Positions 41,858 to 43,295 of a DNA stretch of 43,295 nt are shown here, piece by piece. Each line of letters opens with the position of its first letter. Position 1 is the first letter of the stretch. Below the pieces are notes generated by a model. It searched no databases. It worked only from the letters and a program-made list of their open reading frames with translations, and had not been told where the DNA came from. Position numbers and translations under genes: made by a program. The DNA comes from Alcaligenaceae bacterium (GTDB taxonomy: Bacteria > Pseudomonadota > Gammaproteobacteria > Burkholderiales > Burkholderiaceae_B), in contig JAJUGB010000004.1 in the NCBI GenBank assembly GCA_029268595.1, forward strand, positions 1 to 43,295, written 5' to 3'.

Positions 41858-43084
41858 ATGGCCGTCAATCTGCATATTCCCACTCAAGACAGCATCCACC
41901 CTGTGGCCGGCATCGAGATCGGCATTGCCGAAGCCGGCATACGCAAAGCCAACCGCAAAGACGTCACCCTGTTCCGGCTCGCGCCCAATACAGCGGTAGC
42001 AGGCGTGTTCACGCAAAACCGATTCCGGGCGGCGCCAGTTCAGGTGTGCGAGGCCCATTTAGCCAGCGGACAGTCCATTGCTGCGCTGGTGGTGAATACA
42101 GGCAATGCCAACGCGGGCACAGGGGCTTCAGGCCTGGCCGCCAGTCAAAAAACCTGCGAAGCCGTGGCCAGCCTGCTGCAACTGACCCCGCAACAAGTCT
42201 TGCCATTTTCCACGGGGGTCATCCTTGAACCCCTGCCCGTCGACCGCCTCATTGACGCCCTGCCCCAAGCCATTGACAACCTCCGCCCAGACAACTGGTT
42301 CAATGCTGCCCACAGCATCATGACCACCGACACCCAGCCCAAAATCGTGTCGCGCCAGCTGACGCTGCAAGGGCATACCATCACAATTACCGGCATCAGC
42401 AAAGGCGCCGGGATGATCAAGCCCAATATGGCCACCATGCTGGGCTACCTGGCCACCGACGCCGGACTGGCCCCCGAGTTACTTCGCGAAGTTACTCAAG
42501 ACCTGGCCAACCAGTCTTTCAATCGCATCACCGTGGATGGCGACACCTCCACCAACGACTCCTTCATCGTCATGGCCACCGGCCAAAGCGGCCTGCAGGT
42601 AGACAACCGCCAACACCCAGCCTTCGCTCCGCTAATCCAGGCCCTAACCGAAGCCGCCGTCGAGTTGGCTCAGAAGATCGTTCGCGACGCCGAAGGCGCC
42701 ACCAAGTTCATCACCATCAACGTAGAGCAGGCCCAGTCCTCGGAAGAAGCATTGAAGGTCGCCTACGCAGTGGCCCACTCCCCCCTCGTCAAGACCGCCT
42801 TCTACGCCTCCGATCCTAACCTCGGCCGCATCCTTGCGGCCATCGGCTATGCCGGCGTAACGGATCTGGACGTGTCAAAGGTAAACCTGTGGCTCGGCGA
42901 TGTATTGGTGGCCAGCGAAGGCCAACGCCACCCTCAGTATGAAGAAGCGGACGGCCAACGCGTCATGAAAGAGGCCGAAATAAGCATGCGAATTGCCCTG
43001 GGCCGCGGAGACGCCTCTGAAACCGTTTACACCTGCGACTTCTCGCACGAATACGTGAGCATCAACGCCGATTACCGTTCGTAG
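41858..43084 (+). CDS. argJ: Bifunctional ornithine acetyltransferase / N-acetylglutamate synthase
   Basis: Transfers acetyl from N-acetylornithine to glutamate in the cyclic arginine pathway. The 408-residue proprotein is cut by itself into two chains at Ala192-Thr193 in [20 protein letters not shown], with Thr193 as nucleophile. Other family motifs are [32 protein letters not shown] and the C-terminal [17 protein letters not shown]. The N-terminal [22 protein letters not shown] is typical. An AAGG site lies 6 bases before the ATG. Whether it also has acetyl-CoA-dependent synthase activity cannot be read from sequence. Confidence 0.97.
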
Positions 43085-43103
43085 GCCAGTACACTTTTCC
43101 GCA

Positions 43104-43240
43104 GCCGGGAGGCGGGCGAGAGTGCGGGGCGCCGACCTCGGTATGCGCGACGTTTTTGCCGCCCGGCAAAAACGGCGGTACCCCGCCACAGACGGGGCGC
43201 AGGACGGGGAGGAGCCACGCACTCTCGCCCGCCTCCCGGC
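43104..43240. repeat. 137-bp structured element with perfect 23-bp inverted ends
   Basis: The first 23 bases (43104-43126, beginning GCCGGGAGGCGG) are the exact reverse complement of the last 23 (43218-43240, ending CGCCTCCCGGC). The 91 bases between hold further hairpins: CGTTTTTGCC/GGCAAAAACG (43151-43160 and 43165-43174) and GGCGG/CCGCC (43174-43178 and 43183-43187). No target-site duplication or coding sequence was seen. It begins 20 bases after the argJ stop. It could be a dispersed intergenic repeat (REP/MITE-like), a structured RNA, or a long bidirectional terminator. The pairing is certain; the class is not. Confidence 0.75.
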
Positions 43241-43295
43241 GTTTCAAGAACTCGAAAACGCTCCTCTCGCAAAGCAACGCCCCCTAATACAAAAC

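Follow-up and report, generated by a model that had tools for sequence, protein, structure and literature searches.

What is the perfect palindrome that follows argJ near the end of this contig, and does it belong to that gene alone? The window, i.e. the whole stretch of 43,295 nucleotides that was analysed, carries the argJ gene on its forward strand (41858..43084, from open reading frame and profile matches; NCBIfam NF003802 at 526 bits against a cut-off of 351, TIGR00120 at 400 bits). Its stop codon ends at 43084, 19 bases separate it from the start of the element, which lies on the same strand, and the contig ends at 43295, 55 bases past the element. An earlier reading made from the sequence only had described a compact, non-coding intergenic element with perfect 23-bp inverted arms and an interior that folds further, and each part of this description is borne out: the arms (43104-43126 and 43218-43240) form a perfect 23-bp reverse-complement match with 91 bases between them, or 30 nt long and 93% complementary when mismatches are allowed, an inner inverted repeat lies at 43148-43161/43164-43177, and the RNA fold, at -107.6 kcal/mol, lies far below the -69.0 averaged by shuffled sequences (z -8.7; 0/200 shuffles as low). 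A count of perfect inverted repeats whose arms lie no more than 200 bp apart gives 8 in the window at the 16-mer level and 4 at the 20-mer level, which is exactly the yield of the single 23-bp repeat after argJ, and none of 16 bp or more turned up in 30 sequences simulated from a first-order Markov model of the window.

The sequence-only reading had proposed a BLASTN search for further copies, a single copy conserved only as the argJ terminator being the outcome that would speak against a mobile repeat. That outcome did not occur: the element is a repeat with many intergenic copies in its own genome and in relatives, and congeners differ in copy number or orientation at orthologous sites. Blastn of the assembly with the window copy gave a second element on contig C15, between rapZ-like and hprK-like genes (labelled by eye). 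The arms of this second element differ in sequence from those of the window copy but pair equally well, and it shares the inner strands GACCTCGGTATGCGC and GCGCAGGACGGGGAGG with the window copy letter for letter. A covariance model of these two copies (R1) retrieved a third copy, and further ones weakly; a search with this third, longer copy gave 17 places in the own genome at E <= 2.7e-5, query included, and a model of 13 copies (R2) gave at least 19 matches there at E <= 0.01, all at different places. Over the whole window, R2 and the later model R3 find this one copy only. Six genomes were searched with R2, with 150 candidates scored per genome so that the counts are lower bounds: besides the own genome (G000), four relatives gave at least 17, 8, 27 and 18 matches, the at least 27 matches of G034 amounting to 24 different places as 3 are antisense to another, and G003 gave none.

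How far does the family extend? Across the taxonomic family of the host, R2 matched 38/268 genomes and 20/43 genera, and R1 matched the own genome only (1/268), a near-blank scan that reflects the sensitivity of this narrow model, since the broader R2 did find matches. Across the order of the host, R3 matched 114/399 genomes and 55/159 genera at E <= 0.001, with a best E of 1e-6 or lower in 84 of the 114; in both scans 6-10 candidates were scored per genome, E-values are rough, no negative-control genomes stand behind the counts, and matches in other genomes were inspected solely for the fetched loci. The window element almost certainly belongs to a dispersed, structured intergenic repeat family. 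By tblastn, argJ was not found beside any other fetched copy. Two matches of the first search of relatives with the short window copy (L007 and L008) were set aside as chance-like by eye; a sequence-pattern scan of genome contigs gave 22 single matches, mostly in unrelated taxa, of which the inspected one (L094) held no element and the rest were taken as chance, and the same kind of scan on viral contigs gave 0 matches.

The collection used below holds 101 copies, which is what is left of 121 model matches once 15 antisense overlaps, 4 partial copies and 1 locus that had been fetched twice are removed. A full copy is about 215 nt long (median outer span 217.5 bp in 88 copies). Its outer stem P1, of about 30 bp (median arm alignment 32.5 nt), is separated by an internal loop from the short helix P1b, beyond which the long P2/P3 arm and the small hairpin P4 meet in a junction. 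An A precedes P1 in 65/88 copies and a G follows it in 59/87, with a tail near TTAAGAAC; upstream of the copies, little sequence is conserved besides this A at -1. The most conserved part is the tip of the long arm (approximately CUGUYYGAG, a hairpin, CGAGUU, a stem and GCCGCCC), conserved in 87 copies of the host's family as well as in 48 order-search matches, which suggests that it would have a binding partner; the tip may also resemble a hammerhead core or a tRNA T-loop. The outer stem has a narrower range: of the 48 order-search matches, 3 were too close to an edge to count, and a test for a long P1 arm was passed by 4 of the remaining 45, 3 of these 4 being loci of the host's family, so that the ~30-bp P1 belongs mainly to the host's family.

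The window copy can be read part by part against this plan, all on the forward strand. The 5' arm of P1 (43104..43133, the first 23 nt perfectly paired) was delimited by inverted-repeat search and fold; it is followed by the conserved left strand GACCTCGGTATGCGC (43134..43148), made of GA, CCTCG, the internal-loop GTA and the TGCGC of P1b, and placed by its identity in the C15 copy and by alignment to R3. P2 (43149..43177) is cut down to a short hairpin, the apical module of full copies being absent from the R3 alignment. P4 is the small side hairpin CCCCG...CGGGG (43181..43197), supported by the fold, by the R3 alignment and by covarying helices in the 87-sequence alignment A6, where its pairs (helices 8 and 9) show both-sided changes. 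The conserved right strand GCGCAGGACGGGGA (43197..43210; C15 comparison and R3 alignment) holds the P1b partner, the GGA internal loop and CGGGG, and leads to the 3' arm P1' (43211..43240; inverted-repeat search and fold) and to the 3' tail GTTTCAAGAACTC (43241..43253), which is close to the tail GTCTTAAGAACTC of other copies. The copy thus has the A of the family before its outer stem, at 43103, and the tail after it, and lacks the conserved apical module of the long arm: the whole R3 model aligns to it except for 83 positions holding the conserved tip, in place of which it has 2 bases. Its core is the shortest of the 101, the next-shortest belonging to copies cut by contig ends or to partial model matches. 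It scores 49.9 bits with R2 and 40.6 bits with R3 (E 8.6e-7 over 82,644 bases; 15.7 bits on the opposite strand), and was included in neither of the alignments from which these models were built (A4 for R2, A6 for R3). The window copy is a short derivative of the repeat family, not a full member.

The copies share a common fold whose pairs covary. A raw count on 13 sequences, without shuffle control, gave 30/48 pairs changed on both sides. In A6 (87 sequences), the core covariation score is 0.629; shuffled alignments give 0.168 (0/500 reached the observed value), sliding the strands gives 0.095 at most, and both-sided changes affect 38/48 pairs against 33.0 in the shuffles. A further alignment, A7, holds 48 matches that the order search gave at 29 loci (26 lying outside the host's family); its score is 0.567 against 0.140, with both-sided changes in 41/48 pairs against 32.0. 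Alignments A6 and A7 were fitted to a covariance model, which flatters pair counts, and the P1 arms were therefore aligned separately, with no bonus for wobble pairs. In 88 of the 101 copies (13 were dropped for a missing flank or a weak arm), these arms show 2915 matches, 81 mismatches of G.T type, 24 of A.C type and 81 of transversion type; copy by copy, G.T is in excess in 40, A.C in 10, and both are equal in 38, and an earlier version of the count on 15 copies had given 27 G.T against 3 A.C. The mismatches are thus strand-asymmetric, and in 71/88 copies the more stable fold is that of the sense strand, not of the antisense strand. Together, the G.T excess and the stability of the sense fold suggest that folding takes place on the strand that runs 5' to 3' towards TTAAGAAC, strand-biased C-to-T mutation being a possible alternative source of the G.T-type excess. 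The ratio of G.T to A.C is 60:15 where the upstream gene is co-oriented and 12:6, a weak asymmetry, where it is not; the difference between the two contexts is not significant (Fisher p 0.23). On this evidence from sequences, the fold is probably selected on the sense strand.

Where do the copies lie with respect to genes? The gaps holding the 101 copies are convergent in 49 cases, tandem in 37 and divergent in 1, with one side lacking a neighbour in 14; these are raw counts from a home-made gene caller, with both members of pairs included and no baseline of the genomes' own gap mix. This placement resembles that of REPs, to which a role as roadblock or boundary at the 3' ends of mRNAs is ascribed. 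In tandem gaps the copies have no orientation preference (18 same/same, 19 opp/opp), which is unexpected if every copy served the upstream mRNA.

Taken together, the reading that we favour, with a fair degree of probability, is that the window element is a short derivative of an order-wide, chromosomal, dispersed and structured repeat with REP-like placement, acting through its folded strand, probably as RNA at gene 3' ends. The functional form would be the folded sense strand, most likely RNA produced by read-through from the upstream gene, and this folded RNA would act at mRNA 3' ends as a boundary or compact roadblock; such a 3'-end function is put forward tentatively, as clearly less probable than not. 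The complementarity of the stem would be kept by selection on the sense strand and by arm-to-arm copying (template switching) in DNA synthesis, and copies would multiply rarely, often as inverted neighbours, via some enzyme or host recombination. The window copy, which has lost the tip and kept the stem architecture, may be a relic, or may have retained the roadblock role alone.

Could the arms instead be complementary for reasons that have nothing to do with RNA? The outer stems change fast and in a coordinated manner. Where two copies from the same genome have near-identical cores (66 such pairs), 24.0% of P1 pairs had changed, and 328 of the 516 differences were coordinated double changes in which pairing is preserved; the figure for P2 was 10.0% (95/360 being pairing double changes), and unpaired bases differed at 8.6%; the odds ratio of double over single changes in P1 versus P2 is 5.6, with a p-value uncorrected for non-independence. 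The cores of these pairs are at least 90% identical, a choice that itself favours a slow core, and 42 of the 66 come from G034 and are non-independent. The same contrast is seen in four subfamilies (14, 6, 5 and 5 copies), where mean column entropy is 0.23-0.78 bits in the P1 arms against 0.11-0.28 in the middle and where both arms vary together; in the 5-copy subfamily of G238 the variation is concentrated in a few adjacent letters, and in the other three it is more spread. Between orthologous copies of congeners, with flanks included, 4 both-sided changes stand against 7 broken pairs (L152/L157) and 8 against 10 (L191/L174), further pairs in this comparison being either not orthologous copies or too diverged.

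Stepwise selection alone should not speed a stem above its surroundings, from which we infer arm-to-arm copying in DNA synthesis: the excess of double over single changes in P1 points to a DNA copying process rather than to stepwise selection on RNA, and homogenisation of arms by template switching is a process described in the passages concerned of PMC8604942 and PMC7202029. An origin of P1 from the insertion target gained no useful support, the longest P1 match being 6.57 nt in the copy's own flanks and 6.39 (sd 0.13) in the flanks of others. The rapid, coordinated change of P1 relative to the core, together with the published template-switching process, also fits a palindrome maintained at the DNA level and lacking any RNA role, i.e. 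a selfish or neutral repeat whose arms are complementary solely because template switching in replication repeatedly rewrites one of them from the other. Template switching should nevertheless be strand-neutral, yet G.T-type mismatches exceed A.C-type ones by 81:24, and the sequence of the tip is conserved both in the copies of the host's family and in the order-search matches, which makes such a purely DNA-level palindrome rather unlikely. A further reading, in which each copy owns a private near-perfect stem, parts of which are rewritten in both arms together and faster than the rest, with the branched fold and the tip fixed, is more doubtful still. If such a class were real, the arms would be templated on each other in copying (hairpin-primed or foldback propagation) or, alternatively, the private duplex itself would be used, for example as a copy-specific double-stranded RNA.

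A second set of data concerns the way copies are arranged. Copies pair head-to-head: where the cores of two copies are separated by no more than 1000 bp, which gives 34 close pairs (16 in the host's family, with 4 partial copies counted, and 18 outside), 31 have this arrangement with tails outward, against 1 tail-to-tail and 2 tandem. At one orthologous site of two congeners, G034 has a head-to-head pair and G238 a single element (L174/L191, flanks ~84% identical); at another the pair is in G238 and the single element in G034 (L189/L186); at a third (L187/L199) the two elements come from different subfamilies and face opposite ways with respect to the genes; and other orthologous sites, such as L192/L188, have one element each. 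These differences fit gain, loss or replacement alike. In L188 (2305-2550), about 76 nt extra are found within the tip region compared with the orthologous copy L192.

Does the head-to-head pair represent the unit that moves? In a miniature transposon of the MITE or foldback kind, the two halves of the pair would be long folded terminal repeats, with the TTAAGAAC tails outermost and a transposase supplied in trans. The predominance of head-to-head pairs with outward tails, the two orthologous sites that alternate between pair and single element, the third that differs in orientation and subfamily, and the identity of subfamily cores inside one genome (about 91-97%), which suggests recent amplification, all fit this idea. 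An ordinary MITE with terminal inverted repeats is not supported, as the arms differ between copies and pair within each copy, and they offer no transposase site common to the copies. The flanks looked at showed no evident target duplication (by eye, without statistical test), and no longer copy with a transposase was seen, the domain search being for Y1_Tnp only. Blastn with the window copy and with one full copy gave no match on 72,556 plasmids or on 50,697 phages, and one outgroup pair, compared with the plasmids, had none either. A mobile unit of this type is quite unlikely. The small non-autonomous mobile repeat proposed earlier holds as regards dispersed copies that vary at orthologous sites, and fails as an ordinary terminal-inverted-repeat element since the arms vary between copies.

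Returning to the folded RNA of the favoured reading, would it come from read-through, or would each copy be a small RNA gene with its own promoter, the tip serving as a protein- or RNA-binding site? A tip conserved over the order while stems vary, and the strand asymmetry, would be expected of such genes. However, a search for a sigma-70-like promoter gave none at the window copy, the sequence upstream of the copies offers little beyond the A at -1, a single genome (G034) holds up to 24 different places, and the window copy has no tip, so that a family of small RNA genes appears very unlikely. A known Rfam RNA was also rejected: Rfam 15, scanned with the window from 42000 to 43295 and with 18 loci holding copies, gave no score near the gathering threshold. 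Sub-threshold hits were to two microRNA families and one Pseudomonas sRNA on the window element, the weak microRNA hits being taken as generic long hairpins, and to a staphylococcal sRNA and an archaeal RNA at other loci. The element resembles Rfam 15 families in being structured and non-coding, and differs from them in this lack of a match near gathering score.

The two remaining explanations are scarcely credible. A single-copy argJ terminator unrelated to other loci would fit an element that starts 19 bases past the argJ stop on the same strand, but many copies exist elsewhere, the R3 match of 40.6 bits ties this one to them, and the possible terminator function suggested earlier finds no counterpart in the window, with 0 sites of G+C-rich stem plus T-run, i.e. 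of the intrinsic terminator type, at 42900-43295. A REP/BIME element mobilised by a RAYT transposase would share with REPs, as the passages concerned of PMC3733652 describe them, intergenic palindromes, an unpaired end motif and HH dimers (taken as head-to-head), one class of REPs bearing CGTC and lacking a dedicated transposase; REP/BIME are hairpins of 20-40 bp in these passages, against a branched fold of ~215 nt with a conserved tip here. The BIME-like unit of the earlier reading was ruled out on size (median span ~217 bp, and 137 bp for the window element) and on the absence of a Y1 transposase from 4/5 element-bearing genomes: PF01797 (Y1_Tnp) is absent from G000, G238, G239 and G034 and present in G242, and is absent also from G003, the genome without an element match. 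No GTAG tag is found either; CGTC occurs at the 3' end of many own-genome copies and is not general, as most of the copies of other genera that were looked at do not have it there.

The repeat family is apparently not yet catalogued, Bor-1/Bor-2 and BRE having been set against it by description only. ERIC and NEMIS/Correia elements are palindromic intergenic repeats of about 100-160 bp that can fold in transcripts and whose ends are common to copies, unlike the present family, in which outer stems are copy-specific. In the parts of the literature on palindromic or structured intergenic repeats and toxic small RNAs that were covered, no description of the element was found, and a term search of the PMC11109978 text covered gave no occurrence. 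Bor-1 and Bor-2 are stem-loop repeat families of Bordetella, the Bor-2 model being 167 bp long with 17 members, 6 of them full length (PMC2267715); they are likewise repeated, intergenic and structured, and the passages concerned of that paper contain neither this fold nor copy-specific stems, a comparison made by description and not by sequence. Another example is BRE, the Betaproteobacterial repeat element, which like the present family is a G+C-rich, mostly intergenic repeat, is suspected to be mobile, and occurs in Bordetella, Polaromonas, Delftia and others; according to the passages concerned of PMC3110155, again compared by description, it is ~90 bp long and partly arranged in tandem arrays (variable number tandem repeats), against single or head-to-head copies of ~215 bp here. 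Either Bor-1/Bor-2 or BRE may be relatives of this family.

With model matches in 114/399 genomes of the order and no Rfam model, the repeat would be among the commoner unannotated non-coding features there. The rule that emerges, of a conserved fold and tip, a fast and coordinated outer stem, head-to-head pairs and convergent gaps, would make of its copies natural compensatory-mutation experiments, and the family offers a direct way to ask whether it is RNA selection or template switching that maintains the arms of a palindrome.

There is also a practical side, as 7/19 own-genome matches lie at or within ~60 bases of a contig end (the end of C4, C82, C118 and C194; the start of C27, C148 and C235), which is expected if hairpins break short-read assembly. 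Elsewhere in the same genome, one locus (L053, on contig C195 of G000) holds three successive copies at 15-64, 381-466 and 590-817, two of them truncated, with the same upstream flank; this triple is a local tandem duplication including flanking DNA. In the 3' flank of the copy on C79 (L048), the tail AAGAACTC recurs several times downstream in units of ~20 bp. Outside the host's family, the head-to-head pairs at L239 (1210-1720), L241 (1180-1720), L244 (1430-2010) and L246 (1440-1920) each lie inside a nested palindrome of ~480-580 bp, which has inverted sequences such as GGCCGGGGGCGCCCGGCAGCGCG at its outer ends and contains motifs of the type AAAGAAAGTAACC.
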